Assembly (NCBI RefSeq): GCF_030552475.1
Contig: NZ_JAUPED010000017.1
Location: 1-64,000 of the forward strand
Source: Mariniflexile sp. AS56
GTDB lineage: Bacteria; Bacteroidota; Bacteroidia; Flavobacteriales; Flavobacteriaceae
DNA: 64,000 nucleotides
Reading direction: 5' to 3'
Both the position numbers and the translations under genes were made by a program. The stretch's first letter is position 1. Each line of letters starts with the position of its first letter. The notes below the pieces were generated by a model. That model was given only the letters and a program-made list of their open reading frames with translations. It had not been told where the DNA came from and searched no databases. Below are positions 42,966 through 61,918 of the stretch, in pieces.

Positions 42966-44933
42966 TTAAAAAACTGGAGTAAACCTTAACGTAATTGAAC
43001 CTTGAGAAATTGGTTGAGTAAAATCTACTCCTATTCGGTATGCTGGCCCACCTTCTCTTAAACGCTCAACGGGAACGCGCTCGTCCGTAATCTTTAAAAA
43101 TCCATCTTCACTAGATACTTCTGTCTTTAATGTATGGTTAGCTGTTTTTAAAATAACGGTATGAGCATCTACGATTTCATAATCTGATAAGGTCATAATG
43201 GCGATACCAAAATGTCCTGGTTCGGAAAGTGAAAACGCATCGGTGATACTAATAGATCCGTTTCCGGATTTATCATTTTCCATGATTCTCTCCAAATTGT
43301 TCAAAATAGGTATTTCATAAGCTGCCTTCATATCCATGACCACTTTATCACGACTTTCTGAAAACGCTGTAGCAGTTATTTTACCCTCAAACCTACGCCC
43401 CTTAGATTGCAACATATTATTTATTCTCGGAACAGGATGTCCCCATGAACTTCGGGCGGGATTATCGTCTGAAAATGCTCCAGCGGTATAAGACGGCGCA
43501 CCAATATCGCCCGCCATAATATCTTTTCCCATAACAATAGTATAGGTACCAACATCCATATGGTTATGGTTTTCACTATTGTGTCCTGCTTTAATTGCAA
43601 TAGACAACGGAATATCTTGATTACCACGAGACAATACCATTCCAAACTGATCAAAATAAGTGTGATCGGGAAGTTTATTCACCACTTGAACGCTTTCGCC
43701 TCCATCCTTCTCAGCAATCATATAATTCCACTCAATAAGTTGATAAAATGACGGATAGGTATCAGATGTTTTTAGATTTTTATTCACCCAAGGGAATCCT
43801 GCACCATATTTTCTAGCGACCATTCTTTTTGCAAACCCACCATCATAGGAAATTTTGGTCACCCCATCCGCGAATGGAGAAAACACACCTTCAGCAATTT
43901 GATATCTATACGGAAAATTTGCAACGTTCTCTAATTTCTCTGGATCGTCAAACGCAAACAAATTGATTGCCCCATTTGTAAAATCATAAATTATTTCCGA
44001 TAAATACAAATAATGACCAAATCCATAGCCCCAATAACCAGCGCCTTCAGAACAATAGCCATCATCTCCAAAGCCACTAATATAGCTTTTCATACTATTA
44101 ATTGCCGTTCCTACAGCTTGCAGGCGTTCATTATAATTCTGAGATGTACTAATCGTTACAAAAACAGCTCCGCTCGTACACACTGAATTCCAATTACTTG
44201 TTCCTGTATACCAATTAAGATGTGTTTGTGTTTCACCACTGGTAGATTGTAGGTAGGCATCAATTATTCGCTTTTGCAGCGCAACTTTAATGTTTTCCCT
44301 GATGTCTGCAGAAAGCTTATCTTGTAAAAGCACCTCTGCCAAGGCCAAATCTGAGCCAAATCGACGCGACCCTAAATCGATGGCCATACTGTTCCCTTCC
44401 AACACATCGTTAGATTCGTTATCGTGATTGGGATGTAACCAAGATTTCATACTCAAGATGGCTTCAAGATACACTTCTATTTGTGGCAAAAACAGTCCTT
44501 TATTTTCGATACATTCGGCAAGCATAAAATGCTCCAAACGTGTCATGGTTCGGTAATACCGAGGTTTGTAAATGTCACGATTGCCTTCTTTATTTGCCAA
44601 CCGGTAAATAGAATCTGTAATAGGAACTTCAGGCGCAAAGTTAAGATCAGACCGTGCATCTGCCACATATAATTTTCCAGAATCAGTAGCAGCGATGCCT
44701 TCCCAATAATCGCGATCACTTATAGAAGGTGCCAGCTGAAAGTGTTCTTCTGGAACAACAACTCGCAACATATCTAATTGTTCACTTGTAGGACTTACAT
44801 CATTGGAACTTGCCGCTGCCAAATACATATTAATATCTAACGTTTGCGGTTTGCTGTTTGCTTGTCCTTCCTTGCAACTTGATAAAAAAAGTGATACAAT
44901 TAAAAGCAGTAATGTTGGTATAATTCGGTTCAT
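42966..44933 (-). CDS. Heparinase II/III-like polysaccharide lyase, lipoprotein
   Basis: The 655-residue protein has a lipobox (FLSSC). An alpha/alpha toroid covers about residues 60-390 (TRLEHFMLAECIEN, WNSVCTSGAVF, GFGDDGYCSEGAGYWGYGFGHY with candidate Tyr/His catalytic residues). A beta-sandwich follows, carrying NSENHNHMDVGTY near 455-465, the metal and substrate motif of the heparinase II/III superfamily. Members cut uronic-acid-containing polysaccharides by beta-elimination (PL12, 15, 17, 21 and relatives); the exact PL family cannot be assigned by eye. It is the last gene of the leftward cluster of region B. Confidence 0.85.
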   Translation of the reverse strand: MNRIIPTLLLLIVSLFLSSCKEGQANSKPQTLDINMYLAAASSNDVSPTSEQLDMLRVVVPEEHFQLAPSISDRDYWEGIAATDSGKLYVADARSDLNFAPEVPITDSIYRLANKEGNRDIYKPRYYRTMTRLEHFMLAECIENKGLFLPQIEVYLEAILSMKSWLHPNHDNESNDVLEGNSMAIDLGSRRFGSDLALAEVLLQDKLSADIRENIKVALQKRIIDAYLQSTSGETQTHLNWYTGTSNWNSVCTSGAVFVTISTSQNYNERLQAVGTAINSMKSYISGFGDDGYCSEGAGYWGYGFGHYLYLSEIIYDFTNGAINLFAFDDPEKLENVANFPYRYQIAEGVFSPFADGVTKISYDGGFAKRMVARKYGAGFPWVNKNLKTSDTYPSFYQLIEWNYMIAEKDGGESVQVVNKLPDHTYFDQFGMVLSRGNQDIPLSIAIKAGHNSENHNHMDVGTYTIVMGKDIMAGDIGAPSYTAGAFSDDNPARSSWGHPVPRINNMLQSKGRRFEGKITATAFSESRDKVVMDMKAAYEIPILNNLERIMENDKSGNGSISITDAFSLSEPGHFGIAIMTLSDYEIVDAHTVILKTANHTLKTEVSSEDGFLKITDERVPVERLREGGPAYRIGVDFTQPISQGSITLRFTPVF

Positions 44934-45011: not shown

Positions 45012-47018
45012 CTACTGCGTTATCAATTCATTGAGATATGCTGGGTAATTCTGTCCTTCTCTTCCACCACGGGTAATAGAATCTCCAAAACAAATAATAT
45101 TTTGATTTGGTTTCAAAAGTCGATGTTCTTTTAAAAAGTAATGCACATTTTGAGCCATAAAACGATATCCTAATGCTGTTGGATGCACACCATCTTTCTT
45201 TCCGCTATTCTTTTCATTCCTAATCAACATGTCCTGGTTGTGAATTGGCAAATTCAGGGCTTTAAACTCCGCATTTAAATCGTAAAAATGTACGTTGTTT
45301 TCAGCAGCTAAGGTTTTAACAATGTTACCAATGGCATCTATTTTCATATTTGGTGTTTCTGAAAACAAAACTTTATCGTGTCGTGAAAATAAGTAAACAC
45401 TATCTGCGGGAATGGGACTCATTAAAACCAACTCGCTTCCGCTAGATTTAATTTTTTTAATCAATGTTTCTAAGTTAGCTGTGTAGGTTTTGTAATCATT
45501 CAGTTTTCTAGTATTCAGCATATCATTAGTTCCTACCATCATAATAACTAAATCTGGTTTCTTTGCTATAACATCTTTATCTACGCGTTTTAATAAATCA
45601 TTCGTCGAATTTCCGCCAATTCCAGCATTGATAATTTTTTGCTTTTGTCTTGAATTTGTTACGATGCAATTCACAGATAAATCGTTCAGCTTTACAGGCA
45701 TTCCTGTGTAGTTGAATAGCTTAATATTTTCTGCTCCAGCATAGGAACCTTCAGCAGCATCTGGGTTTCGGTAACGGTGTACATCATCCCAAAACGATTC
45801 TCCAAATACAATCGGAGATTCAATGCTACGCTTCTTATTCTGATAATTACGAATGGTGATGTGATGTCCTGTGCCATTAATTTCTACCAAGCGTGATACG
45901 TTGTACTCACTCACAGTATCCACCAATTCTAAATCGACTTTACAGTTTTTCACATCATTCCCCACAAAGGTGATTAGTGGTCCATATAAAGCATCGCCTT
46001 TAGAATCCTCAATAACACCATCAGTTCCAATTGAAAATCCTTTTTCTTGACAACCAATAGCTGTTGATCCCGCAATTTTAGTTGGTGGTAAATTGGCACT
46101 TAAATCGAAACCTGAACGCATATTTTTCACAGTACAATTAATCACCGTAACGCCTTGTGTTCGTCTTCCGCTTAAACCTCCAGAAGGATATGCTCTAATA
46201 CCGTCTTCCGACAATGATTTTATTTCATTAGGCAGAATTTTCCCTGGCGGATAATCACTTTTAAAATCAACATCAAAAGCCAATCCCGAAGTTTCTGCAA
46301 GCATCTCATTCGTTGGTCTCATTTTTCCTTCCACATAACAATCTCGCAAAAGCGTATTGACAGCACCTTGCATAAAAATACCATGTCCATACGCATGTGT
46401 AACCACTTTACATCCCAACAATTTTGTATTCGATCCCTCTACTAACAAAACAGAATGTTTATGTAAAGGCACTAAAGCGTTTCCTCCTTTGCCTAGCAAG
46501 TGACCGTAACCGTATGGCGTTGAACCATGAACAAATAAATCGGCGTTCTTAATGGTATTATCATCTCCCATAACGCGTAACATTTGTACGCGATTTGCAG
46601 GCACATGGCTACCAACATCTTTTCCTTTTAAACCTTCAATGTAATTGTTATTACCACTTACCAAAAACTCACTAAACTCACTTTTCGGATAGTTATCATG
46701 TAACTTCCCATCAATATTAAGAGTCACTCCGTTTAAAAAATATTGACTATTATTTCCTGAGAAATGAATTAAAGAACCGATACGAAAATCACCTTTCTTG
46801 CTATTCTTTTCACTGTATTTAAAAATACTTAGTTCACCTATTTTAATAGAATTTATAGCGTATTCACCCGGTTTCATTTTAACCAACACATGGCTCTTTT
46901 GAGCATATTTAGCTAACTTTTCTACTGAATTTATAAAAATAGTATCCCGTAAAGTGTTTGTGGCTTGCGCTGAAAACACAAGTATAATTAGCAGTAAAAG
47001 ACTAACTGTTTTCTTCAT
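45012..47018 (-). CDS. Beta-helix protein fused to a circularly permuted SGNH esterase
   Basis: The 668-residue secreted protein (cut near SAQAT) has two parts. Residues about 25-450 form a right-handed beta-helix sharing PYGYGHLLGKG, KHSVLLVEG, YGHGIFMQGA, CYVEGKMR, AETSG and LSEDGIRAY with two other proteins in the locus. Residues 457-668 are an SGNH hydrolase in rotated order: block II IINAGIGGN (462-470), block III GTND (496-499), block V DGVH (609-612), and last block I GDS with the nucleophile Ser647. Normally block I comes first. No T9SS tail follows. The likely role is lyase or glycan binding plus removal of acetyl or other esters. It is 78 bp upstream of the heparinase-like gene. Confidence 0.75.
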   Translation of the reverse strand: MKKTVSLLLLIILVFSAQATNTLRDTIFINSVEKLAKYAQKSHVLVKMKPGEYAINSIKIGELSIFKYSEKNSKKGDFRIGSLIHFSGNNSQYFLNGVTLNIDGKLHDNYPKSEFSEFLVSGNNNYIEGLKGKDVGSHVPANRVQMLRVMGDDNTIKNADLFVHGSTPYGYGHLLGKGGNALVPLHKHSVLLVEGSNTKLLGCKVVTHAYGHGIFMQGAVNTLLRDCYVEGKMRPTNEMLAETSGLAFDVDFKSDYPPGKILPNEIKSLSEDGIRAYPSGGLSGRRTQGVTVINCTVKNMRSGFDLSANLPPTKIAGSTAIGCQEKGFSIGTDGVIEDSKGDALYGPLITFVGNDVKNCKVDLELVDTVSEYNVSRLVEINGTGHHITIRNYQNKKRSIESPIVFGESFWDDVHRYRNPDAAEGSYAGAENIKLFNYTGMPVKLNDLSVNCIVTNSRQKQKIINAGIGGNSTNDLLKRVDKDVIAKKPDLVIMMVGTNDMLNTRKLNDYKTYTANLETLIKKIKSSGSELVLMSPIPADSVYLFSRHDKVLFSETPNMKIDAIGNIVKTLAAENNVHFYDLNAEFKALNLPIHNQDMLIRNEKNSGKKDGVHPTALGYRFMAQNVHYFLKEHRLLKPNQNIICFGDSITRGGREGQNYPAYLNELITQ

Positions 47019-47135
47019 TTTTTGGTGTTTTTTTTTAATTTTGGTCTATGTTAAATTATAATGTTTCTAATAAATTTCCAGTCTATCTCTGAGTATTATT
47101 GAAAGAAAAATGACTTCTATTTAAAAATCAAACAG

Positions 47136-50100
47136 TTATTTTTTTATTATTTTATTTGTAACAATCGATGTCTCGTTTTTAAGTTTTATAAAATAGATAC
47201 CATTACTAAGGCTAAACATATCTAAAAAATAGTCACTGCTTGTTATTTCTTCTCGTCTTTCCAGTTTACCTAAAGTGCTATAAAGCTCTATAATACTCCC
47301 CACTTTATTATTAATGTGCAATTTGTCTATTACGGGATTGGGGTATAAGATAGTCTCATTTTCAAAACTATCAACTCCCAAACTTGAATCATACAATAAT
47401 TTAAACCAATTAAAATTAACTAAAGACACACCTGTTTGACCTCTAAAAACCAAATACAAACGATGTGTACCAGTAATAGATTGAATTTCAGCACTACTAC
47501 TTTGCCAACTTTGAGAGCCCCCAGTGCTTTCACTTACATCTACGGTTCCTATAAGTGTACCTGTAATGGGGTCGTCTAAACGTAATTCTACAAAAGTTTC
47601 CTTATAAGATGATTTTGCTATAGCGACTTCAAAAGCGTTCACATTATTTTCATCAAAATTGAAAGTTGCATAACCAAAATAATTACCATCTCTAACACCC
47701 GCTACGTAGAAACCACCTTCTGATGCTGCTTTCACTTCACCTCCCAAATTATCACAAAAATCTTCTGCGTTTATTTGTGTTTCTGGTGAAATGGTGGATA
47801 CTTCGCAACAATTTTCAGCAATATAAGATGTTGGCGTTATTACAGATTGACTTCCATTATCTTGAACTTCAGAGCTTGATGACACTATGGCTTGAGTAGA
47901 ATTAGCACCTATTTCCACTTTGTATCGCGTTTTATTTGTTAGTACCGTTTGACTTGCTGCAACATCTTGTTTGCCCGCATCTAAACGATATGCACCATTG
48001 TAACCTCCAATTAAAATTCTTCCAAAGCCATCATGTTCTTCACAACCAGATTCTTCTTTAATAGTTACGTCATTTCTTGTAGCAGCGATGTAGGCTATAA
48101 TATCGTTTCCATAATATTCGGAAGGATCACGTCTGATAACCGATATATCCATAGTAACATCATTAATATTCGTATAATAGAAAAATGCTAATGGTGCATA
48201 TAAAGCATCACCTTTGCAATTTTCAAACACATCATTATCACTAGGTATGAAACCCAATTCCTGAACGCCTAAAGCTGTTGTATTGGTAATAATATTATTA
48301 CCTGGCGTAAAGTTGGTATGTACACCTCGCCTCATGTTTTTTATGGTACAGTTATTTACCGTAATTTTATTCGTGTTTTTTGTTCCGCCTGAAAAGTAAT
48401 CTAAACCAGAAGCATAAGCTCTGATGCCATCTTCTGATAATGACGACATATACCCAGGAGATAATCTATCTCCAAAAGTTGTTAAAAAATCGATATCGTA
48501 TGCAGGTCCAGAAGTTTCCGTAAGCATATCGTCTGTGGTTCTTAATTCACCTTCTATATAACAACCATCAAAAGTAGTATTGGTGGCGCCTTGCATAAAC
48601 AACCCATGTCCAAAAGTTCGTGAGTAAAGCGTCATGTCTTTAATAGTGTTATTATTACCTCTCACTAAAAGCCCTGAATGTTTCGTGTGTCTAATTGTAT
48701 AATCAGAGCCTATACCAAAATAACTTCCATAGCCATAAGGAAATGAGCCTCTTGTAGTGTATTTTATGGCATCAAACAGGTTATTGTGCCCATCTATAAA
48801 AACGGAAACTGCTGAACTAAGCATAGATTCGCTATAATTATCGTCTACGTTTTCAAATTCCAGACCATATATATGATTGTTTGAGCCAACTATATGGATA
48901 TCTGTTAAACCTTGTGTGCCGCCATTGTTTCCTATAAAAGAATAATGGTAAGCTGAAAATTCTATTTTAACATTCGTTAAATCGTAAGTAGAATTTGAGC
49001 CTTCAAATAAAAGTAATGCATATTGCCCATATTTTCCTGGCACACATTTATAAACGTTATTTATAATATCTGCCTGCGTTACAGTATAAGTACCGGGAGC
49101 TAACTTAATGTTTACATTATCGTGAACCAAGTATTTTTTCAGGTCGTTGATACTGCTAACCGTTCCGTTATCGGTAGGGTTGGTTTTGGAACGAAACTCT
49201 AAATAATTTAGCAAGCCATCCCCGTCGGAATCAACGGTATCTAAATTTTCATATTCTGAAGGATTTGATAATCCTGAAAAATAGGTATCATACCAAGTAT
49301 AAGGGACGCCGTTTGATGTAGCTGTTCCATTATTGGAAGCTGTTACTCGAAGCGTATCGTCTTTTCCATCACTATTAGTGTCTACAAACTCAAAACTCCA
49401 GCGCGATTGATCTACCGATGGAGCAAATGCTAAACCATTATCAGTTATTGTGCCGTCCCATTTCATAACATCCCAACTTCCACTAATATCAACACCAGCT
49501 TTAAAAGCAACATCTAAAAGAGCACCATTGGCAAAGGTGACATCACCATCGCTTCCTGCACCATCAACATATTTCACTTCTACTGGCGTTACACCCCATG
49601 TATCCATATAAAGGGTTAATTTACCTCCAGATGATTGATTCCAAAAACCATCTGATGTTCCGTTTGTACCTAAAGATATATAATGACTTTCTGAACCATC
49701 TACAATAAAATTACCGCCATTATAAACGTATACTCCTGTTCTAGTTTGAAACTCTCCTCCTGAAATTTTAAAAGTACCGCTTCCGCCTCCAAGATGAAAA
49801 CTTCCTCTGGTAGCTTTAACCAAACCATTGTTCAAATTCCAAACACCTGTTCCAGACTGTCCTATTCTTATATCACTTGCTATTATGATGGCACCACTAT
49901 TTTGATTAATTGTACCAACATCTGAACTATTATGACCTACCAAACAGTTACCCGATGCGTTGGTAGTTGAATACACAGCACCATTTTCAATATCCAACTC
50001 ACCTGTACCGCTTACACCTACACGAAGACTTCTAGATGCCCCATTAATAATGGAACTTAAAATCGCTTTATTACTTCCTGATGAATTAATGGTGGCATTT

Positions 50101-50240
50101 TGTGTACTATTTGGAACTTCTCCAGTGTTCCAATTGCCAGGATTGGAGAAATCATTATCTCCAGCTGAATTTGTCCATGTTTGTCCTGTTGCCAATTGCA
50201 TAAAACAAGAAGCAAAAAACAAGAATATAATTCTTTTCAT
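47136..50240 (-). CDS. Multimodular secreted beta-helix protein with CBM6 and T9SS tail
   Basis: The 1034-residue protein has a signal peptide. An N-terminal beta-rich repeat region follows (about 20-290; WTNSAGDNDFSNPGNW opens it, as in autotransporter-like repeats), then a calcium-type DSDGDGLLNYLEF stretch. A central beta-helix (about 370-740) shows GSFPYGYG, KHSGLLVRG, FGHGLFMQGA, CYIEGELR, ETSG and LSEDGIRAY, the same signature as the two other paralogues. A CBM6-like module lies near 825-960 and a T9SS type A sorting domain (ILYPNPVIDKL ... IYFIKL) ends the chain. It should be exported to or beyond the cell surface. The catalytic activity is not known; a polysaccharide lyase is my inference. 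Confidence 0.72.
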   Translation of the reverse strand: MKRIIFLFFASCFMQLATGQTWTNSAGDNDFSNPGNWNTGEVPNSTQNATINSSGSNKAILSSIINGASRSLRVGVSGTGELDIENGAVYSTTNASGNCLVGHNSSDVGTINQNSGAIIIASDIRIGQSGTGVWNLNNGLVKATRGSFHLGGGSGTFKISGGEFQTRTGVYVYNGGNFIVDGSESHYISLGTNGTSDGFWNQSSGGKLTLYMDTWGVTPVEVKYVDGAGSDGDVTFANGALLDVAFKAGVDISGSWDVMKWDGTITDNGLAFAPSVDQSRWSFEFVDTNSDGKDDTLRVTASNNGTATSNGVPYTWYDTYFSGLSNPSEYENLDTVDSDGDGLLNYLEFRSKTNPTDNGTVSSINDLKKYLVHDNVNIKLAPGTYTVTQADIINNVYKCVPGKYGQYALLLFEGSNSTYDLTNVKIEFSAYHYSFIGNNGGTQGLTDIHIVGSNNHIYGLEFENVDDNYSESMLSSAVSVFIDGHNNLFDAIKYTTRGSFPYGYGSYFGIGSDYTIRHTKHSGLLVRGNNNTIKDMTLYSRTFGHGLFMQGATNTTFDGCYIEGELRTTDDMLTETSGPAYDIDFLTTFGDRLSPGYMSSLSEDGIRAYASGLDYFSGGTKNTNKITVNNCTIKNMRRGVHTNFTPGNNIITNTTALGVQELGFIPSDNDVFENCKGDALYAPLAFFYYTNINDVTMDISVIRRDPSEYYGNDIIAYIAATRNDVTIKEESGCEEHDGFGRILIGGYNGAYRLDAGKQDVAASQTVLTNKTRYKVEIGANSTQAIVSSSSEVQDNGSQSVITPTSYIAENCCEVSTISPETQINAEDFCDNLGGEVKAASEGGFYVAGVRDGNYFGYATFNFDENNVNAFEVAIAKSSYKETFVELRLDDPITGTLIGTVDVSESTGGSQSWQSSSAEIQSITGTHRLYLVFRGQTGVSLVNFNWFKLLYDSSLGVDSFENETILYPNPVIDKLHINNKVGSIIELYSTLGKLERREEITSSDYFLDMFSLSNGIYFIKLKNETSIVTNKIIKK

Positions 50241-50277
50241 TTTTAGTTAAGTTTAGTTAATCAATTATCTTATTTAG

Positions 50278-51660
50278 TTATCCCAAATAGGCGCCGTCTT
50301 CAATTAATTTAGCTTTTAAGTCGTTATAATCAACGGCATCGGGTACCGTATTATTTATGGCGGATAATCCGGCAAGAGTTCCCGCTCCTTGACCAATGGC
50401 CATGGCAATGGGTGTTACCCTTAAACCTGCACTGGCATAATGGTCTGCACCAATGGCTCTACCAGAAAGTATTAAGTTCTCCACTTCATTAACTAAAAGG
50501 GAATCGGTTGGAATGTAATAAGCACCATCATCTTTTAGGTGCACCGTATCGGTAGTGCCTCCATCCGGTGAATGGATATCCAATGGGTAACCACCAACGG
50601 CAATAGGGTTTTTAAATCGCACTTCGTTTACCAAATCCTCAGAAGTGAGCACGTATTTAGCATGTGGATGACGCGATTCGCGAACACCAATATGCGGTGC
50701 TGTACTTACAAAAGTGGCATTTTCAAAACCTGGTGCGTATTTTCTCAGGAAATTAAAAATTTCAACACATTGCTTACGTCCCATGGTTTCTGCTTTACTT
50801 AAATCGAACGGATTCATTGGGTTGAAACCAAGTACTCGTGAGGTATTGAAAATAAATTCACCTTCAGTATTAGTTTCAAAAAACAAGACATTATCTCTAG
50901 GAACCGTCACTTCGCCTTTGGCTTTGGCTTCTTTCCATAAATCGTAAAAGCCCCAAGTTGAAATACGTTTAGAACGTTTTAAAACTTCAGCCTTATCATC
51001 AGCTCGTTCATCGGCATCAAACTGATCCCAATTGTTAATCATGTATTCGCGAAGCTTTTCCGTATTCACATTACCTACTTTAATATTGGTAGTCATGGGT
51101 TGGGACTTATTATCTTCAGGACGCCCTTCGGTGAAAGGCACACCAGATAACTTAACTATTTCGCTATCTCCACTTGCATCGACAAACACCTTTGCTGGTA
51201 TTTCTTGAATACCGCCGCGGTTATGGACAAATACTGATTTGATTTTATTGTCTTCTTTTGAAATGTCAATCAGTCGGGTATGGTACAAAATTTCAGCACC
51301 AGCTTCAAAAACCATATCTTCTAAAACTACTTTCAACATTTCAGCATCAAAGGGTGTAACTGTTGAACAATAGCCTGTTCCATCTAGAATATGCCCTGGA
51401 CTCGCACCTCTTTCAATCAATCTATTCACCATTTCATTTGGAGAACCGAACACTAATTGTCTTCCAGCTTTATTATGAAAAGTCATCATAGGTCCTACTC
51501 CCATAGCTGTAAGCGTTCCTCCTAAAAACCCAAATTGCTCAATTAGTAGGGTTTTTGCTCCAGTTTTTGCTGCTGCAATGGCTGCATGACTACCGGAAAC
51601 TCCACCTCCAACTACTATTACGTCATATCCTTCTATTAATGTTGTCTTAAATGTTTTCAT
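50278..51660 (-). CDS. FAD-dependent oxidoreductase (PF12831-type)
   Basis: The 460-residue protein has a dinucleotide fold at its N-terminus (DVIVVGGGVSGSHAA, then LLIEQFGFLGG). A middle region contains KVFVDASGDSEI, and a C-terminal FAD motif reads NLILSGRAIGADHYASAGLRVTPIAMAIGQGAG. There is no signal peptide, so it is cytoplasmic. Family members occur beside polysaccharide genes, but their substrate is generally unknown. Sitting between a sodium:solute symporter and a beta-helix gene, it could oxidise or reduce an imported uronic acid or its derivative. That is inference. Confidence 0.85.
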   Translation of the reverse strand: MKTFKTTLIEGYDVIVVGGGVSGSHAAIAAAKTGAKTLLIEQFGFLGGTLTAMGVGPMMTFHNKAGRQLVFGSPNEMVNRLIERGASPGHILDGTGYCSTVTPFDAEMLKVVLEDMVFEAGAEILYHTRLIDISKEDNKIKSVFVHNRGGIQEIPAKVFVDASGDSEIVKLSGVPFTEGRPEDNKSQPMTTNIKVGNVNTEKLREYMINNWDQFDADERADDKAEVLKRSKRISTWGFYDLWKEAKAKGEVTVPRDNVLFFETNTEGEFIFNTSRVLGFNPMNPFDLSKAETMGRKQCVEIFNFLRKYAPGFENATFVSTAPHIGVRESRHPHAKYVLTSEDLVNEVRFKNPIAVGGYPLDIHSPDGGTTDTVHLKDDGAYYIPTDSLLVNEVENLILSGRAIGADHYASAGLRVTPIAMAIGQGAGTLAGLSAINNTVPDAVDYNDLKAKLIEDGAYLG

Positions 51661-51693
51661 TTATCTTTTTTCAATTTTTATTTTAAACTACTG

Positions 51694-53232
51694 TTACTTA
51701 TTATTACTTAATTTTGAATGTATTAAAGCTACTATTATTACTACTAAAGCCCCTACTGGGAACCACCAAAAGAAACTGATGCCATCATAATGCATCCATG
51801 CAATAACTAAAATAGCTAAAAATGCCCCCATTAGTATACCTATAAACTCCCCTTTTCTCATCAATGCTAAAAATGCGATTCCTATTAAAACGCCGTAGGC
51901 ATAACCAGGAACCTTAAATCCTAATGCCAATAAACCTCCATCTTGGAAAAAACTAAATCCGTAAGCCAATAGAGCCAAAACAACACCCCAAACCACGATG
52001 GCTATTTTTGATATTTTAACCACTTTGCTTTCATCCATTGTTTTTAACTTAGGTACTATCAATGTACCAACACCCATAACACTTGTCTGGGACAGGGCCG
52101 TTAATGCCGAATCTAATGTTGAAATTCCTGCTGCAAACATAGCGGCAATAATTAAACCGGAAACGCCATCTGGCAATTCGTTCACCACATAATATGGAAA
52201 AATTCTATCAGGCTCGGAAGCAATGGAACCACTTACTAAATCTGATAACGGGTTGATATCATAATAAGCCACCAAACCAATGCCAACAAAAGCCATAATC
52301 CAAGTAGTAGCAACACCTACTACCGAAAAAGCGACGGCTTTTCGTGCCTCTTTTAAGTTTTTACAGCATAATGCACGTTGTGTTACCACTTGATCTACAG
52401 CATTAGAACCAAATTCAAAAAATGTACAGCCTAAAATACCTACCCACAACGTGTAGGTTTTATGAGGGTCTAAAGATAAATCAAACAGCGCCAATTTTGC
52501 TTTTTCATCGGCTATGGACATCATTTCTCCAAAACCACCTGGAATATCTCCAATAGCATAAAACAAGGCAAATAATGCCCCTGCTATAAAAATAATAAAC
52601 TGAATTGCATCTGTCCAGACCACCGTGGTAATACCACCAATGTACGACCAAACAATAGCGAACAATGCAATGATGCCAATACACACCATAGTACTTTGTC
52701 CCGTAATAACACTAAGCACCAAAGCAGTACCCAATAAGCGTACACCTTGACTCATGGTAGCACCAATCATAAAAAATGATCGGGATAATTGACTTGTTTT
52801 TATACCTAATCTATTTTGAATAAAATCGTATGGACTAAAAATGCCTTCTTCGTAATACTCCTTCAATAGAACGTAAACGAATAACACATTACCCAATGCA
52901 AAGCCAATAGTCATTTGTAAATAGGTCAAGTTCCCATCCATTGAAAAAATGAAGGCTGGTACAGCAATAAAAGTAGCGACACTGGTTTTAGTGGCTATTA
53001 AGGATAAAGAAACCGCCCACCATGGCAAATTGTTTCCGCCTTTAAAAAAAGCATCCAAACCTTTATCTTTGTTTTTCACCAATTCTCCAATGACTGTGGT
53101 TCCTAATAAAAAAACAATAAGAATAATCCAATTGACGGTTGAAAAATGACTGGATGCTATTTCGTTTGATTGTTGTGCGAACATTGCTAAGCCACAAAAT
53201 AAGGCTATCATTACCATGAAAAATTTCTTCAT
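51694..53232 (-). CDS. Sodium:solute symporter (SSS family)
   Basis: The frame is open from 53262, but that start would overlap the upstream gene by 20 bp. The ATG at 53232 gives the typical leader MKKFFMVMIALFCGLAM and leaves a 10-bp gap with an A-rich start region, so I choose it. The 512-residue product has the SSS pattern of about 13-14 membrane helices, with WWAVSLSLIATKTSVATF in an early helix and AAMFAAGISTLDSALTALSQ, the sodium-binding motif, in a late one. It probably imports the unsaturated mono- or disaccharides released in the periplasm. Confidence 0.9.
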   Translation of the reverse strand: MKKFFMVMIALFCGLAMFAQQSNEIASSHFSTVNWIILIVFLLGTTVIGELVKNKDKGLDAFFKGGNNLPWWAVSLSLIATKTSVATFIAVPAFIFSMDGNLTYLQMTIGFALGNVLFVYVLLKEYYEEGIFSPYDFIQNRLGIKTSQLSRSFFMIGATMSQGVRLLGTALVLSVITGQSTMVCIGIIALFAIVWSYIGGITTVVWTDAIQFIIFIAGALFALFYAIGDIPGGFGEMMSIADEKAKLALFDLSLDPHKTYTLWVGILGCTFFEFGSNAVDQVVTQRALCCKNLKEARKAVAFSVVGVATTWIMAFVGIGLVAYYDINPLSDLVSGSIASEPDRIFPYYVVNELPDGVSGLIIAAMFAAGISTLDSALTALSQTSVMGVGTLIVPKLKTMDESKVVKISKIAIVVWGVVLALLAYGFSFFQDGGLLALGFKVPGYAYGVLIGIAFLALMRKGEFIGILMGAFLAILVIAWMHYDGISFFWWFPVGALVVIIVALIHSKLSNNK

Positions 53233-53242
53233 TCTTTTGTTT

Positions 53243-54658
53243 TTATTGTTTTTCAAACACATTGTTTTTTCCTAAATCTTCTAATAATTCGCCGTTAGAA
53301 ACCGCTTTGTTGTTTTCTGACAGTTCCTTAAAAACAATTGGCATGCCTGTTTGGTTATTTAAAGTTATATTGTTTGCCCCAGAAAATTTTTTTGGATCCG
53401 AATCAGGATTTCTATACCTATGTACATCGGACCAAAAGGATTCGCCAAATACGATAGGACTCACTTTGGTTCTGTTTTTATTATCATAATTTTTAATGGT
53501 TATAATATGTCCAGAACCATTTATTTCTGCCAAACGTGTCACAGGATAATCGCCTACGTTGGGCATCAATTCTAATTCTACTTGGCAATTTTTCACATTA
53601 TTCCCAGGAAAACTTAACAACGGTCCATATTGCGCATCACCCCTAGAATTTTTCACAACCGCATTTGATGCAACTGAATACCCTTTTTCTTGACATCCAA
53701 TCGTTGTACAATTTTCTATTTCTGTTTTACCTATATGTGCATTTAAATCGATTCCAGAGCGCATATTTTTGATGATGGTATTTATAACTGTAATGTTTTC
53801 TGTTTTTCTGCCAACAAGATACCCATATGGATAAGACCGAACACCATCTTCTGAAAGTGCTTTCATTTCATTAGGCAGTATTTTCCCCGGAGGGTAATCA
53901 CTCGCAAAACCGGTTTCGAAAGCAGGTCCTGATGTTTCAGCCAACATCGCATCGGTTGAACGCATTTCACCTTCAACATAACAATCTTTAATAAAGGTAT
54001 TAACAGCTCCTTGCATGACTATACCGTGACCAAACCCTCTAGTAATAACAGTACAGTCCAATAGTTTTGTATCTTTTCCTGATACTAAAAGGGATGAATG
54101 CTTTTGAGGCGTAACAATTGGGTTAGCTCCTTTACCAAGTAAATGCCCATAGCCGTATGGATACGAACCTTGAATGTGAAGTTTTACATTTCTAATAATA
54201 TTACCATCACCCATAACATGCATCATAATGGCTCCGCGAATGGGATGTTCTACTCCAATATCCCTTACTTCCAGTCCTTCAACCGTATTGTCATTTCCAC
54301 TCACAAAGACTTCAAAAATATGGTTTTTACCAAACGCTTTGTGCAATTTGGTATCTAGATGAATAATAACATCATTTAAAATATATTTACTGTTATTTCC
54401 TGAAAAATATAACAAAGCGGATACTGGATAATCTGTTTCTGGTTTGCCATAATTGTATTTTTTTAAAATGACATTATGGCTCAAATCTGTATTTGCGATA
54501 TGATACTCGCCTGGTGCTAATTTAACGGTTACATTATCTTGACTTAAATATCTTGATAGTTCTTGTAATGAACTAACCTCAATTATTTCGTTACTTCCTT
54601 TGCACGAAACAAAGAAAGCCATGGTAATGATTATGCACGTTAGCCTTTTTTTAAACAT
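53243..54658 (-). CDS. Beta-helix lipoprotein, paralogue without esterase domain
   Basis: The 471-residue protein has a lipobox (FFVSC) and consists only of the beta-helix seen at 45012 and 47136. It shares GSYPYGYGHLLGKG, KHSSLLVSG, FGHGIVMQGA, CYVEGEMR, AETSG and LSEDGVRSY, and also SPIVFGESFW.DVHRYRNPD with the 45012 protein. It ends about where the SGNH domain of that protein begins. Membrane anchoring suggests a periplasmic or surface step on the same glycan as its secreted relatives. It lies 26 bp downstream of the fasciclin gene and 10 bp upstream of the symporter. Confidence 0.75.
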   Translation of the reverse strand: MFKKRLTCIIITMAFFVSCKGSNEIIEVSSLQELSRYLSQDNVTVKLAPGEYHIANTDLSHNVILKKYNYGKPETDYPVSALLYFSGNNSKYILNDVIIHLDTKLHKAFGKNHIFEVFVSGNDNTVEGLEVRDIGVEHPIRGAIMMHVMGDGNIIRNVKLHIQGSYPYGYGHLLGKGANPIVTPQKHSSLLVSGKDTKLLDCTVITRGFGHGIVMQGAVNTFIKDCYVEGEMRSTDAMLAETSGPAFETGFASDYPPGKILPNEMKALSEDGVRSYPYGYLVGRKTENITVINTIIKNMRSGIDLNAHIGKTEIENCTTIGCQEKGYSVASNAVVKNSRGDAQYGPLLSFPGNNVKNCQVELELMPNVGDYPVTRLAEINGSGHIITIKNYDNKNRTKVSPIVFGESFWSDVHRYRNPDSDPKKFSGANNITLNNQTGMPIVFKELSENNKAVSNGELLEDLGKNNVFEKQ

Positions 54659-54684: not shown

Positions 54685-56310
54685 TTATTGAACAGGGACA
54701 AATTCAAAATAATCCAAACCAATAGCCCCTTGTTGAACGGTTGCTAACCTAAGCACATGGCTTTTTTGTTCTGAAAGCAGCAATTCCTTAGTTATAACAA
54801 ACCTAATATAAGTTTGACTGTCATACGCTGAGACACCTTTACTATTTACAATCTCTTTCAACCCAGGTCTCCAGCCATTTGCTTCCATAATTGCTTCATC
54901 GGGATAACCAACATTGTTGGCTTTTTTCCTTGCATCCCACACACCACCTAAAGGTTCTCCGTCCCAATATATTTGATAAACACCTCTAGAAGGAGCGCCT
55001 CCATTGCCACATACTGTTACTTCATACTTACCTTTGGGCAATACAGGTGTATCAAATTCGTACCATTGACGACTTGACGCACTCAACGTAACGTAATCGT
55101 GAGCAGTATTATTAGAACTTCTTATAAACCTTAAATTGGCCTCGGGATACCATCTCATACCCGTATAGGCTGTACTTGGGTAATATTTATGTGATTGGAC
55201 TAACCCTGATTGGTATTCGGGTTGCGATGTAACGGGATCGAAAATTACATATTTTGCTCTTGGAGTGAATATGGTAAATAATTTATTTACGGTATGGTAT
55301 ACCCCATTTTTGGCAGGGAAATTACTTTCATTAATTATCAATGAAGTCCAAGTATCATCCGCACCTGTCTCAGTTTCGTTTAATTTTAATTCTTTATCCG
55401 TTTTAAACGATTTCCATGCATTTCTTTCTAAAACGGTTTTTACAAACGCATCATCTGGAAAATTTCTAGAGTATAAAAAGCTAAGGGTAGCATGATACGC
55501 TACAAACCTATTGAGTTCATTTTCTTCATTTGTAAAATCCGTATTATTTGGAGAAAATCTATTTACCAAATCTTGAAAAGAATGGATACCTTCTTGAGCG
55601 TAAACTACATCCGATTCTGCTAAAATGGTAAAGTTATTTTTTGAACCAAACTCATTGTAAACAGCCGAAAACTTCTCATAGTAGCCCGTTTGCTTCAAGG
55701 CTTCCACAAAAATGGTGTGTTTTCCCGCTTTATCCATCGTTACTGGTACAGGGTCTATATAAGGATCCAAAACACCGTTTGTGGTGTGTATAACACCGTT
55801 GCTTACATCTATATCATATCGCTCTAACCCAACCTCACGGTTAATTTCCAAATTGGATATACCGCCACCTTTTAAAAAGGAGGTAGTAATAAAATCACCA
55901 GTATATGTTGTATCGGGAAGTCTTCCTTCTACAAAACTACTTGTTTTTCTAGTAGATGGTATGGTATTAAATTTTACCAGTATTTTTAAAAATTCAATAT
56001 CTTCTGGATTGGTAATTTCACTTACCGATTCAACATTAAATTTTTCTTTGATATAAACCTTAACAGCTTCGTTTGTTGGTACGAAACAGGTATATTTTCC
56101 ATAACTTTTAAAAGCATTATAGAATTCTGTTTTTTTTAGAATTTCAATGTATGACGAAAACGTTTCTGGATTTGATTCCAATGTTTGGATAATCGTCATA
56201 TCCTTTGAAGTAAAAAAGGTGTCATTGTCAAGTTTGTCTTCGCATCCTAAAGTGACGACAACAATTAACACGAAGGCACTTAGCCAAGTAAATAATTTAT
56301 TAGTTCTCAT
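54685..56310 (-). CDS. Fasciclin-domain lipoprotein
   Basis: The 541-residue lipoprotein (leader VVTLGC followed by EDKLDND, a surface-type signal) carries two fasciclin/FAS1 domains. The first (about 35-195) has YTCFVPTNEAVKVYI and NGVIHTTNGVLDPY; the second (about 205-375) has NFTILAESDVVY and KNGVYHTVNKLF. The last 150 residues are beta-rich, with YEVTVCGNGG and IGLDYFEFVPVQ, as in carbohydrate-binding jelly rolls. Such proteins usually belong to SusC/SusD operons of Bacteroidota and are thought to bind glycan or scaffold the surface complex; here no SusCD is adjacent. Confidence 0.82.
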   Translation of the reverse strand: MRTNKLFTWLSAFVLIVVVTLGCEDKLDNDTFFTSKDMTIIQTLESNPETFSSYIEILKKTEFYNAFKSYGKYTCFVPTNEAVKVYIKEKFNVESVSEITNPEDIEFLKILVKFNTIPSTRKTSSFVEGRLPDTTYTGDFITTSFLKGGGISNLEINREVGLERYDIDVSNGVIHTTNGVLDPYIDPVPVTMDKAGKHTIFVEALKQTGYYEKFSAVYNEFGSKNNFTILAESDVVYAQEGIHSFQDLVNRFSPNNTDFTNEENELNRFVAYHATLSFLYSRNFPDDAFVKTVLERNAWKSFKTDKELKLNETETGADDTWTSLIINESNFPAKNGVYHTVNKLFTIFTPRAKYVIFDPVTSQPEYQSGLVQSHKYYPSTAYTGMRWYPEANLRFIRSSNNTAHDYVTLSASSRQWYEFDTPVLPKGKYEVTVCGNGGAPSRGVYQIYWDGEPLGGVWDARKKANNVGYPDEAIMEANGWRPGLKEIVNSKGVSAYDSQTYIRFVITKELLLSEQKSHVLRLATVQQGAIGLDYFEFVPVQ

Positions 56311-56361: not shown

Positions 56362-57552
56362 TTAGGCTTCCCATTTTTTAAGCCTCAATAAAGCCTCCAA
56401 ATAATAATAATCTGCATAAATTATTGGTACATCTATTTCTGAATTTTTAGGGTGGTGTCCTGTTGAATGCAGTAATAATGCTTGGTTTTTTTCATTACTT
56501 AAATAAGCATCGGTTGATAACATATTTACAAACCGTTTAGCAGCACGGTAGTATTTATTTTTCAACTCCTTATCTTTTACCAAACCAGCTAATTCCAGCA
56601 TGCCACATGCAGCTATTGCTGCAGCCGATGCATCTTTCGGTGAGTTTGGTATTCGAGGGTCATCAAAATCCCAATACGGGATGCCGTCTTCGGGTAAGCG
56701 TTCTAAATATTTATCGGCAAGATGGATGGCTGTATTTAAAAAATCTTCTCTTTTTGTTTCTCTGTATGCAAAAGAAAAGCCATAAATACCCCAAGTTTGC
56801 CCACGTGCCCACATAGAATTATCGGCATAACCTTGATGGGCTACCCCTTTTATAAACGCTCCTGTTTTATTATCAAAAGAACCTAAATGATAAGTGGTAT
56901 AATCTGGTCGCACTAAGTTTTTCATAGTAACCTCTGCATGACTTTCTGCAATATCATATAAACGCTTTTCGCCACCATTTTTAGCTGCCCAAAAAAGCAA
57001 TTCCAAATTCATCATATTGTCTATAATGGTATTATGAGGATATTGAGGCTTCATGGGCCATGAGTGAATAGAACCTACTATAGGGTTATAAAGCGTTGCC
57101 AAAGTATCGGCAGCTGCCAACAAAACCTGTTTGTATTCCGCATTACCGGTAAGTCTATAGGCATTACCAAAACTGCAATAAACCTGAAAACCTATATCAT
57201 GGTCTAGTGCAGGTGTATAAGCGATCGTTTTAATTGGTAAAGTAAATTTTTCTGCCGCTTTTTTGATGGCTTCATCGCCCGAATGTTCATAGGCATACCA
57301 TAAAACCCCTGGCCAAAAACCACTGCACCAATCTGTTACGCCAACACATTCCCATTCTTTTTCTCCTGAAGGTATATTTCTTGGAAAACTATCAAACGCT
57401 TTTATTTGTTTTAAAGTTTCCTTAGTTTTTATCACACTAAAATCCAGTATTTTATCGACACTTATGGTTGAATCTTCTTTTTTTATTGAAAAACACCCTG
57501 TGAACACTAGCGAAACAAATAATATATATATAGCTTTCCTAAAAAATTTCAT
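56362..57552 (-). CDS. GH88 unsaturated glucuronyl hydrolase, lipoprotein
   Basis: The 396-residue alpha/alpha barrel hydrates the double bond of 4,5-unsaturated uronic acids left by polysaccharide lyases and releases the sugar. Asp119 in HDIGFQVYC and Asp178 in IIDNMMNLELLFWA are the expected active-site acids; WCSGFWPG, ARGQTWGIYGF and YWDFDDPRIPN.PKDASAAAI fit the family. The leader ends FTGC, a lipobox, so it acts in the periplasm. It is strong evidence that the lyases of this cluster attack a uronic-acid polymer. Confidence 0.92.
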   Translation of the reverse strand: MKFFRKAIYILFVSLVFTGCFSIKKEDSTISVDKILDFSVIKTKETLKQIKAFDSFPRNIPSGEKEWECVGVTDWCSGFWPGVLWYAYEHSGDEAIKKAAEKFTLPIKTIAYTPALDHDIGFQVYCSFGNAYRLTGNAEYKQVLLAAADTLATLYNPIVGSIHSWPMKPQYPHNTIIDNMMNLELLFWAAKNGGEKRLYDIAESHAEVTMKNLVRPDYTTYHLGSFDNKTGAFIKGVAHQGYADNSMWARGQTWGIYGFSFAYRETKREDFLNTAIHLADKYLERLPEDGIPYWDFDDPRIPNSPKDASAAAIAACGMLELAGLVKDKELKNKYYRAAKRFVNMLSTDAYLSNEKNQALLLHSTGHHPKNSEIDVPIIYADYYYLEALLRLKKWEA

Positions 57553-58741: not shown

Positions 58742-61700
58742 TTATTCCTTTATTATTTTCTTAGTTGTCATGATGCCATTATTACTTATGCGCACAAAAT
58801 AAATACCACTAACAAAACCACTAATATCTATCTGTTCCTTGTTATTTTCTATCTTCTCTTTAGTCAATAACTTGCCCACAATATTATAGATTTCCACATC
58901 AGCCCCTAAACCTTGAGATACAATAAAACTGCCTTTAACTGGATTGGGATATATTGACACAACGTCTTGTTTCAAACTGTTGACTCCTAAAGTTAACCCT
59001 GCATAAGCAGCGATATCTTGAAGTGAAGCGAAATTTTTAATCCATTCAATATCGTTATACGTAGCGTTGGTTGTACTACTCGTATTATTATCATCAATAA
59101 GGAATATTATTCTATTGGTATCTGTATAATTTGTACCACTTGCAAAAACTTGTGTTTTTCCGCTACCAAAACCTGGGCCGTTAGTACTTAAGTCAAAAAC
59201 ATAAATCCCTTGGTTGTTAAGTGTTGTATTGGCTACATTGGAAAACCCATCTTTATCGTTATTATACCAACCACTCGCCATATAAAACGACATTCTGGAT
59301 GCTGGTAAATGATCTATTTTAATAGCCACATAAGGATGGTCTACACTAAATTCTAAATCTGCTTGATGTTGAATGCCCAAATATCCATTTGTTGCTGGAT
59401 ATGTTGCTTGTAGCTTGCCAGAAATAACAGCCATTGAGGTTGCTACTGGATTATTGAAACTTGTCCAACCTTCGAAATCCCCATCTATATCAAAAAGGAA
59501 TTCGAATTGACCAGGAACCTTTGATTCATCAATATAAACCGGCAATGTTGTTTTAGAAATACCAGGACCTTCATACATTACAGATAAAGCACTATTAGAG
59601 CCCGATGCTGTAAAATATTCGACTTTTATTTTGTAATAGCCTTCATTTAAACAAATACTTACAGCACTTTCTTGTTCTTCATGCAATCCATCATTATCAA
59701 TTATTTTTATTCCTTCAATTGACAAATTCGATCCATCATCAGAACGAGTATAAAAGGTATAAGTACCACTATTTGGCGCATGAACATAGCCTTCAAATAC
59801 AAAGCCGTAATTATTTGCACTAGAAGCTTCGCTTAAATCAATTATAGCTATTTCACCTGTTTTTATTGGTGTTTCTGCATCAAAATCCGGAAGTTCATTC
59901 CATACGCCTTCATAGTAGCTATAATTAATACCTCCTTTAAAATTAGTAAAGTCCGTAGTAGAAATCATACAAGACAGTGTGTTGATATTTAAAGAAATAC
60001 TATTTAAATCAAAAGAATTATTAGCACCGCTAAACATTACTTTTAGAGCTTGCACTCCTTTTATTAAGTTCACATTGCTAGCTACGGTAAAATCTTTCCA
60101 ATCCGTTAATCCTGTTGAATTTGAAGCTCCGAAAGGTACATTTACTTCGGTTGTAACATCTACACCCCCAATGTTAAATTTAATCTTTCCGTTGGCATTT
60201 GTTGATGCATATCTAATAGAAATATCGTAGGTTCCATCAGCAGGTACATTTACTGTGTAAGTTAGCCACTCTCCATCTTGTATATCGGTAATGTTGTATC
60301 CGCCTTCTGAGCATACTTTTATATCTACATTTTCATCTATACGGTAAACTCCTCCATTGTTACTTATAGTTGTGTCATTATAAGTGTGGTCTTCTCCACT
60401 AGTAGTGAAGTAATCAAAGTTTTCTGCTTCAATAGTCGTTGGTAAATTATTCATTGAATAAATCGGCAAATTGTTTGTGTCAAAACCCTTTATAGGATCT
60501 CCGTAACAATTATCTGCCCTTCTAAATATTAAACCTCCATAGCCTAGATAAGATCCATTATCAGGAGCTGTTTCGTAATTACCATTCATTTCTATTGATT
60601 TTTCACGTGCGCGAAGTGTCCATTTAACTTCTTCAGGTGCTTTTATACCTCTGCCTATATAATGAGCCGTTGGCAATTCCCATGCTGCCACATCATTAAA
60701 TCTATCTCTATAAATTCTTGCAGGATCGTCTGCATAAATTGGACTTATGGCCAATGACATAGTACGGTTGGTTCTATCCATTTGTTGAATAAACTCACCA
60801 GACTCTGCTGTTGGTGTCCATTCGTTTGGCTGATCCATATATGATTGTACATATGAAACTGTATACCTATTATTAAACTCTAAACCTAAAAGGATTCTAG
60901 AATCAGCTTCCCCCCAAAAGTCCGCTCCTTGATTCCATGCTATTTCACCAATATTACACAACATATACTCTCCCCACCAAGTATGCCACAAATCCCTTGA
61001 ACTTTCTTGACTCTGTCCATTCTCCCAAATATAGTTGGTTAACACGCCATTAAAACCATAATCTGATATTGCGCTGCCAGTTGTGTAGTTATAATTTATT
61101 TGATAATCTGTAGTATTTATAACGCTTCCTCTTATATGGGGACCAGAAGCATAAGGTAAATCATCCGCACGATGTGGTAACCCTTTAACATATCTTAATG
61201 CCCTATCGTATATAATTTCATTATCTAAAAACGCACCAATCGCTAAACATGCTCGAACAGCACTTATTTCTTGATTACCAGCTCTAACATAATCGAACAT
61301 GTAAGCCCTCCAATACCAAGTACCCTGGGTAGTAAGATCGGACGGCTCTGCAGTATTGGAATACCCGGGATACACCAGCATATCTTTAAATTTATTAATA
61401 TCTGTTGGAGACCAACCATTGTAAGTGCTTTTAATTATTTCTGCACCTTCTAGCATGATGTAGATTAAAGAACTGGTTAAAGCTCTGGTTCCACTATGTT
61501 GCAGGTAGGTTAACCCCGTCCAAGCATTAAAAATTTCAATTGCTTTTTCTGCATGCCTATTATCTCCGGTAATAGACCACATTAGGGCATTTTGGTATGC
61601 AGCTCTACTATCATTTTCAAAAGCTGAAAGATTTGTTTTTGGTGCATCTCTATATAAAACAGTCATCGACGTATTACCTTGTACTACATAATCGTATTTT

Positions 61701-61918
61701 GACTTAGAATCAGCAGCCATCAAAAGGTAGGATTGGTAAAATGGTTCCTTTTGAGCTTCAACCATGTATTTCATTCTATCTAAATCAGATTTTTTATGGG
61801 ATAAACCTGGATGTACAAATTGGGCATGTACGATCCCAACTGACACAATAAGAAAGCATAAGAAACTAAGCACTTTCTTTTTATTAATTTTCATTTTATT
61901 CATTGTAGTTTTTTTCAT
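58742..61918 (-). CDS. Multimodular alginate-lyase-superfamily protein with CBM6, PA14 and T9SS tail
   Basis: The 1058-residue secreted protein has five parts after its signal peptide. An alpha/alpha toroid of the alginate lyase superfamily (about 35-445) contains NALMWSITGDNRHAEKAIEIFNAW, TRALTSSLIYIMLEGAEII and the aromatic WHTWWGEYML; this fold includes PL5- and PL38-type lyases. A CBM6-like module (about 495-645) follows, then PA14 (about 655-795), then the 175-residue domain shared with two neighbours (802-977). A T9SS type A tail (VSIYPNPVKGSF ... GIYFVRISN) ends it. It should be secreted and attack the uronic-acid polymer; exact substrate and PL family are not readable. Confidence 0.8.
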   Translation of the reverse strand: MKKTTMNKMKINKKKVLSFLCFLIVSVGIVHAQFVHPGLSHKKSDLDRMKYMVEAQKEPFYQSYLLMAADSKSKYDYVVQGNTSMTVLYRDAPKTNLSAFENDSRAAYQNALMWSITGDNRHAEKAIEIFNAWTGLTYLQHSGTRALTSSLIYIMLEGAEIIKSTYNGWSPTDINKFKDMLVYPGYSNTAEPSDLTTQGTWYWRAYMFDYVRAGNQEISAVRACLAIGAFLDNEIIYDRALRYVKGLPHRADDLPYASGPHIRGSVINTTDYQINYNYTTGSAISDYGFNGVLTNYIWENGQSQESSRDLWHTWWGEYMLCNIGEIAWNQGADFWGEADSRILLGLEFNNRYTVSYVQSYMDQPNEWTPTAESGEFIQQMDRTNRTMSLAISPIYADDPARIYRDRFNDVAAWELPTAHYIGRGIKAPEEVKWTLRAREKSIEMNGNYETAPDNGSYLGYGGLIFRRADNCYGDPIKGFDTNNLPIYSMNNLPTTIEAENFDYFTTSGEDHTYNDTTISNNGGVYRIDENVDIKVCSEGGYNITDIQDGEWLTYTVNVPADGTYDISIRYASTNANGKIKFNIGGVDVTTEVNVPFGASNSTGLTDWKDFTVASNVNLIKGVQALKVMFSGANNSFDLNSISLNINTLSCMISTTDFTNFKGGINYSYYEGVWNELPDFDAETPIKTGEIAIIDLSEASSANNYGFVFEGYVHAPNSGTYTFYTRSDDGSNLSIEGIKIIDNDGLHEEQESAVSICLNEGYYKIKVEYFTASGSNSALSVMYEGPGISKTTLPVYIDESKVPGQFEFLFDIDGDFEGWTSFNNPVATSMAVISGKLQATYPATNGYLGIQHQADLEFSVDHPYVAIKIDHLPASRMSFYMASGWYNNDKDGFSNVANTTLNNQGIYVFDLSTNGPGFGSGKTQVFASGTNYTDTNRIIFLIDDNNTSSTTNATYNDIEWIKNFASLQDIAAYAGLTLGVNSLKQDVVSIYPNPVKGSFIVSQGLGADVEIYNIVGKLLTKEKIENNKEQIDISGFVSGIYFVRISNNGIMTTKKIIKE
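58988..59515 (-). repeat. Duplicated domain, copy 1
   Basis: This segment encodes residues 802-977 of the alginate-lyase-like protein. It is nearly identical in protein, and visibly very similar in DNA, to 62264-62788. Long shared stretches include GYLGIQHQ, IKIDHLPASRMSFYMAS and YNDIEWIKNF. Confidence 0.9.

Follow-up and report, generated by a model that had tools for sequence, protein, structure and literature searches.

Three genes on the minus strand of a 64,000-nucleotide stretch of Mariniflexile sp. AS56 (contig NZ_JAUPED010000017.1, positions 1 to 64,000; this whole stretch is called the window) encode proteins that we assign by sequence to the known FdlA family of fucoidan lyases, and one of the three carries a circularly permuted SGNH esterase in the same polypeptide. 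The proteins are named here by the first coordinate of their genes as the 45012, 47136 and 53243 proteins. The lyases belong to a known family; the architectural variant is new. The features on which the argument turns, all on the minus strand, are the following.

45012-47018, minus strand: fusion of an FdlA-like lyase and a circularly permuted SGNH esterase, 668 amino acids, signal peptide
45684-46946, minus strand: FdlA-like beta-helix domain of the 45012 protein, residue equivalents by alignment
45012-45695, minus strand: permuted SGNH domain of the 45012 protein, from Pfam SGNH/GDSL and block order (block I last)
47136-50240, minus strand: FdlA-like lyase with N-terminal extension, CBM6 and type IX secretion system (T9SS) tail, 1034 amino acids, from Pfam
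47871-49175, minus strand: FdlA-like domain of the 47136 protein, residue equivalents by alignment
53243-54658, minus strand: FdlA-like lyase alone, lipoprotein-like signal, 471 amino acids
62006-63499, minus strand: second permuted SGNH protein, separate, with T9SS tail, from Pfam and motif blocks

Membership in the FdlA lyase family

Inspection of the three proteins reveals a common lyase domain of ~430 residues, which falls into one alignment containing every motif that an earlier, sequence-only reading of the window had picked out. A search of the organism's own genome with the 53243 protein gave 53% identity to the 45012 protein (query residues 4-450, E 8.5e-159) and 40% to the 47136 protein (residues 27-366, E 7.3e-66); the sequence similarity among the three is far above chance. 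The earlier description of the three as paralogues stands, as do their open reading frame (ORF) coordinates and their architectures: an esterase fusion (SGNH/GDSL), a multimodular T9SS protein (CBM6 and T9SS tail) and a bare lipoprotein (lipoprotein-like signal).

FdlA, from Flavobacterium sp. SA-0082, is a fucoidan lyase with crystal structures (PDB 7xz7-7xzf), described as a metal-independent enzyme whose substrate is sulfated fucoglucuronomannan (PMC9410043). Searches of the PDB with phmmer returned FdlA chains over the whole domain of ~430 residues for the 53243 (E 4.7e-67), 45012 (E 1.6e-62) and 47136 (E 1.5e-79) proteins, while all other matches of the 53243 protein lay at E 0.24 or worse. 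The sequence-only reading had proposed a possible new lyase family; given this clear match of all three proteins to a characterised enzyme, that claim falls. Its picture of a beta-helix, lyase-like domain with conserved charged residues on a groove survives by way of FdlA (PMC9410043), whereas its statement that no established family could be recognised does not. The profile search that it had suggested was run with Pfam and matched the lyase domain to the generic Beta_helix family or to nothing, with a sub-threshold Beta_helix match on the 53243 protein. Beyond generic Beta_helix, we found no match to PL1, PL6 or another beta-helix polysaccharide lyase (PL) family of Pfam, and no model for the lyase domain was found in NCBIfam. 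In 2022 the FdlA paper described the enzyme as then without a CAZy class and possibly representing a new PL family (PMC9410043); a CAZy number for FdlA-type lyases was not found in the literature searched.

Among the three, the fold was assessed by modelling for the 45012 protein. An AlphaFold2 model of the whole protein, built from 33 sequences with a mean predicted local distance difference test (pLDDT) score of 87.3, matched FdlA in Foldseek at E 3.2e-29 and in VIA-align at Z 48.3 over 408 residues (1.9 Å, 34% identity).

Active-site residues across the family

The activity of FdlA is abolished by D137A, K141A, H176A, F179A, E236A, R240A, Y242A and Y242F, and retained in full by R272A; Tyr242 is the proposed acid and Lys141 the proposed base, and the conserved charged residues, placed at strands, line one groove (PMC9410043). 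Alignment gives the following equivalents, with the FdlA residue in brackets.

45012 protein: H173 (D137), K177 (K141), K187 (K151), H212 (H176), F215 (F179), E271 (E236), R275 (R240), Y277 (Y242)
47136 protein: S506 (D137), I510 (K141), K520 (K151), H545 (H176), F548 (F179), E603 (E236), R607 (R240), Y609 (Y242)
53243 protein: H172 (D137), K176 (K141), K186 (K151), H211 (H176), V214 (F179), E270 (E236), R274 (R240), Y276 (Y242)

The equivalents of H176, E236, R240 and Y242 are kept in all three proteins, and the likeness to FdlA and FdlB takes in the whole domain, the fold and these four residues. In the 45012 model, K187 and H212 come immediately before strands, and R275 and Y277 fall within a strand or shortly after it; these modelled positions are consistent with the groove described for FdlA.

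The comparison was extended to 146 domains, comprising FdlA, 13 from the organism itself and 132 from loci L057-L131 (136 lyase ORFs), from which rows shorter than 330 residues or identical were dropped. H176, R240, Y242, Q181, K151 and R272 are invariant in 146 of 146; E236 is present in 145, Phe179 in 125 and Asp137 in 104. Invariance alone is no proof of catalysis, because R272 is invariant and R272A FdlA is nonetheless fully active. Position 141 holds Lys in 121 of the 146 domains, Leu in 14 and Ile in 11, a count to be read with the fact that the pattern used to collect relatives, YGYG[DH]x[FL]GK, itself selected for K141; in the 40 rows lacking the pattern (FdlA excluded) the figures are Lys 15, Leu 14 and Ile 11. 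Lys151, which lies in the KHS motif, is kept in all 25 domains without Lys141, as are H176, R240 and Y242. In a quick tree K141 changes three times, with the Leu rows together in one clade and the Ile rows split into two groups. A single clade with support 99 unites the 13 His137 rows, those of the 45012 and 53243 proteins among them; the 47136 domain sits on a long branch (1.03) and its placement is unsure.

A circularly permuted SGNH domain

Sequence and model together identify the esterase of the 45012 protein as a circularly permuted SGNH domain of order G-N-H-S. Its blocks occur as GIGGN at residue 466, GTND at 496, DGVHP at 609 and FGDS at 644, and those of the separate 62006 protein as GVGGN at 48, GTND at 78, DGVHP at 178 and FGDS at 211; blocks I (GDS), II (G), III (GTND) and V (DxxH) are all present. 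GTND, DGVH and GDS are invariant in 15 aligned permuted members, the Pfam SGNH match begins at position 33 of a 178-position profile, and in stand-alone members the signal peptide runs straight into block II. Against 7ddy, the native query aligns as two swapped pieces of 54.6 and 5.2 bits, the latter not significant alone, and the query rotated to S-G-N-H aligns as one contiguous piece (residues 4-199; 69.0 versus 62.0 bits). The gain on rotation is modest, and the case for permutation therefore rests mainly on the conserved order and the structural alignments. A model of the domain (pLDDT 85.0, predicted template modelling score 0.84, nine sequences) matches Axe2 in Foldseek at 1.8e-07, along with acetylxylan esterases and other SGNH proteins, and reaches Z of about 16 to 17.5 in VIA. 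In 49 of 50 rows the sequential VIA alignments stop no later than model residue 198 and begin no earlier than chain residue 29, which omits the last 30 model residues and at least the first 28 target residues; the remaining one, 3mil_B in the top row, extends to residue 227.

Two simpler accounts of the domain were rejected. A degenerate SGNH remnant does not fit a full-length domain whose blocks are conserved in 15 members and whose signal peptide leads into block II, and a chance C-terminal GDS does not fit the conserved block order, the structural alignments and the contiguous 7ddy match on rotation.

The nearest solved esterase relatives, the canonical acetylxylan esterases Axe2 and AlAXEase, share the core fold and blocks II, III and V, but carry block I with the catalytic Ser at the N-terminus, where here it is C-terminal. 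AlgX/AlgJ and DHHW (PatB1) proteins likewise have a permuted SGNH core; the AlgX and DHHW families follow the order H-S-G-N (review PMC9487903), in contrast to G-N-H-S here, with GDS, GTND and DGVHP kept. The G-N-H-S order was not found in the accessible parts of the literature searched on permuted SGNH proteins, which covered AlgX, AlgJ and PatB1 and, as listed entries, PMC4148444 and PMC10302187 (WssI). FdlA has an F5/8 type C domain in place of the fused esterase (PMC9410043), and it is the 47136 protein that resembles FdlA in its T9SS-type architecture.

A family search of 397 genomes (E <= 1e-12), 40 of which gave any match, found the G-N-H-S order in ten other genomes and three own copies; at nineteen further loci (L034-L052) no ORF with at least three blocks was found under the block pattern, and these are left unclassified. 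In a phylum search of 395 genomes, with E <= 1e-25 and no more than seven candidates scored in each, four genomes matched, our own and three others, all G-N-H-S. The third own copy, C23:151629-152198, lies on contig C23 beside a GH88 gene. Fusion of lyase and permuted SGNH occurs in seven genomes, with L027 and L060 counted once as one genome: our own, Tamlana sedimentorum, Gramella sp. AN32, an uncultured Formosa, Algibacter amylolyticus, Formosa algae and M. fucanivorans. The permuted domain also stands alone, unfused, in other genomes. Algibacter miyuki has an unfused 45012-type lyase, and its 53243-type lyase gene has a separate permuted SGNH gene directly after it.

Of 20 loci examined, 17 have a flavin adenine dinucleotide (FAD)-dependent oxidoreductase of PF12831 in the same 18-21 kb stretch as a permuted SGNH gene, often directly adjacent (window 50278-51660, L138-L148, L058, L061, L062 and L064-L066); three query sequences were used, two of which came from L142 and L147. 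A functional link between the two is possible.

Genomic setting and proposed role

The remaining genes around the lyases are listed below; the GH88 gene and the two further lyases that the sequence-only reading had placed there are borne out by the GH88, Alginate_lyase and heparinase-like neighbours.

42966-44933, minus strand: heparinase-like lyase, best solved relatives 8r6z and 8r75
50278-51660, minus strand: FAD-dependent oxidoreductase PF12831 (Pfam), recurrent neighbour of permuted SGNH
51694-53262, minus strand: sodium:solute symporter PF00474 (Pfam)
54685-56310, minus strand: fasciclin-domain lipoprotein-like protein (Pfam)
56362-57552, minus strand: GH88, probably an unsaturated glucuronyl hydrolase that acts on the lyase products (Pfam and nearest solved relatives, namely a GH88 entry and unsaturated glucuronyl hydrolases)
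58742-61918, minus strand: Alginate_lyase (PF05426) domain protein with CBM6, PA14 and T9SS tail (Pfam)

A xylan-type locus at 16334-40480 adjoins the lyase genes and holds four GH10, GH43, GH3, xylose isomerase-like, xylulokinase-like, transaldolase and transketolase genes and a hybrid sensor. A second hybrid two-component sensor, 29% identical to the one at 30187, lies just past the window (L014:3689-7849, C9 ~63688-67848) and flanks the lyase set.

The genome holds 13 lyase-domain matches, three on the window contig and ten on C23 (202-274 kb), the latter confirmed as ORFs by profile. Pfam scanning of 20 of the 56 C23 ORFs found four sulfatases, GH95, GH29, GH31, heparinase-like and GH67-like proteins and a SASA esterase, together with an SDR, an FAH hydrolase, an amidohydrolase and an MFS permease; in the last four we see a likeness to an L-fucose oxidation set. 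Named loci led to eight other genomes, which hold 5 to 12 lyase copies each, and multiple copies are therefore usual for such degraders. A class-level lyase search of 395 genomes found our own genome alone; with at most four candidates scored per genome and 4 of the 13 own copies returned, it says little on rarity.

Scanning of 84,980 species genomes with the pattern given above yielded 209 stretches, of which 186 were relatives, and 75 distinct loci were kept. The relatives are mainly Bacteroidota and Verrucomicrobiota, with a single Planctomycetaceae and a few Hydrogenedentota assemblies, and the nearest, Mariniflexile fucanivorans, is 93% identical to the 53243 domain. Six named loci (L060-L065) hold a 45012-type gene beside homologues of C23 genes, the closest of them at 59-90% identity. 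Sulfatases in L062 and L065 are 72-76% identical to their C23 counterparts, and L063 has a four-gene run 68-90% identical to C23:192389-199567, the first two genes of which look SusC/SusD-like by size and position. The order GH88, symporter, FAD oxidoreductase, ~830-residue protein and lyase-SGNH recurs in L062, L064 and L065. The relatives place the window-type locus inside fucoidan loci in several genera. The ~830-residue conserved protein, which has no Pfam match and precedes lyase-SGNH in relatives (L066:7418-9907, L064:7414-9909), is absent from the window, and M. fucanivorans has two tandem fasciclin-domain genes (L057:6456-9909) where the window has one.

We consider it likely that the three proteins are secreted or lipid-anchored FdlA-family lyases for a fucoglucuronomannan-type polymer, assisted by GH88 and SGNH enzymes, and that their locus forms a satellite to the larger C23 fucoidan locus. 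Family membership is argued from the phmmer E values, the 45012 fold and the invariant core residues; the fucoidan assignment from the ten C23 copies near sulfatases, GH95 and GH29, the C23 homologues at L060-L065 and a GH88 gene in the same run. By analogy with FdlA, the lyases would cut the mannose-glucuronate link of a sulfated fucoglucuronomannan-type brown-algal polymer as endo-lyases, through beta-elimination that needs no metal, the invariant Tyr serving as acid and the invariant Lys, His and Arg surrounding the uronate. Judging from the neighbourhood, GH88 would then clear the unsaturated glucuronate, and the permuted SGNH domain would strip O-acyl, probably acetyl, groups.

Several observations weigh against this proposal. 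Asp137, essential in FdlA, is His, Ser and His in the 45012, 47136 and 53243 proteins; the 47136 protein has Ile in place of Lys141, which the other two keep, and the 53243 protein has Val in place of Phe179. Specificity or activity may therefore differ from that of FdlA, and the same activity is not claimed because D137 is replaced in all three. Even the reference activity is disputed: another group reported that FdlA and FdlB broke down fucoidans from Sargassum and Fucus while absorbance at 232 nm did not increase (PMC6267234). No sulfatase was found in the Pfam scan of the window, which covered 30 of its 35 ORFs. The M. fucanivorans locus L066 ends in unrelated genes (e.g. a topoisomerase) and is not joined to C23-type genes except for its own sulfatase and GH97. 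These two occupy the place that the 47136 protein has in the window, with the FAD oxidoreductase on one side and the lyase-SGNH gene on the other. The lyase itself was the sole match in the Puniceicoccaceae locus L059.

The lack of a sulfatase among the 30 window ORFs scanned and the neighbouring xylan-type set (four GH10, GH43, GH3 and xylose isomerase-like genes) would suit a different substrate. The His137 clade, with the 45012 and 53243 proteins, might cut a uronan that is acetylated or carries less sulfate, for instance glucuronomannan or glucuronoxylan, with the esterase replacing sulfatases; all 13 His137 domains group together, and the clade takes in all seven SGNH fusions and the A. 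miyuki lyase that precedes a separate permuted SGNH gene. We nevertheless regard this as unlikely, given that sulfatase-like ORFs lie ~10 kb or less from 45012- or 53243-type genes in L057, L061, L062, L064, L065 and L066, in a motif scan that undercounts (it recovers 2 of the 4 C23 sulfatases seen with Pfam), and that C23-type fucoidan genes adjoin 45012-type genes in other genera.

Loss of both Asp137 and Lys141 raises the separate question of whether the 47136 protein is an inactive lyase kept for carbohydrate binding, since D137A and K141A each kill FdlA (PMC9410043) and the protein carries a CBM6. This seems to us quite unlikely: the 25 domains without Lys141 all keep H176, R240, Y242 and K151, and the three tree changes mean that whole lineages retain the rest of the site. 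That the domain belongs instead to another beta-helix class (PL1, PL6, epimerase or GH28), the FdlA match being one of fold only, is extremely improbable. The 45012 model does share its fold with the epimerases AlgE4 and AlgE6 (Z 30) and with lyases of PL6 (Z 24 to 26), and AlgE4, a mannuronan C5-epimerase whose A-module is the next closest fold, also performs C5 chemistry on uronates; however, AlgE4 shows 10% identity and no sequence relation detected by phmmer, and FdlA stands alone both by sequence and by Z (48 versus 30).

Returning to the FdlA-type proposal, we add a bolder version of it as a serious but tentative possibility: that secreted G-N-H-S esterases, opened between blocks I and II, are fused to FdlA-type lyases that act on an O-acylated substrate, and that Lys151 or another invariant residue, rather than Lys141, serves as the base. 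Descriptions of the Ile141 paralogue, of the His137 clade and above all of the fused G-N-H-S esterase were not found in the accessible portions of the literature searched.

FdlA-type lyases are rare tools to depolymerise glucuronate-containing fucoidans, and their published mechanism rests on one enzyme; the 146-domain comparison separates invariant residues, Lys151 among them, from the variable Asp137 and Lys141. As a naturally occurring circular permutation, the fused esterase is matched only in part by standard SGNH profiles, and the fusion suggests that the substrate bears ester groups. If the bolder version above is true, a single polypeptide would de-esterify and cut an algal uronan, and G-N-H-S would be a third SGNH topology.

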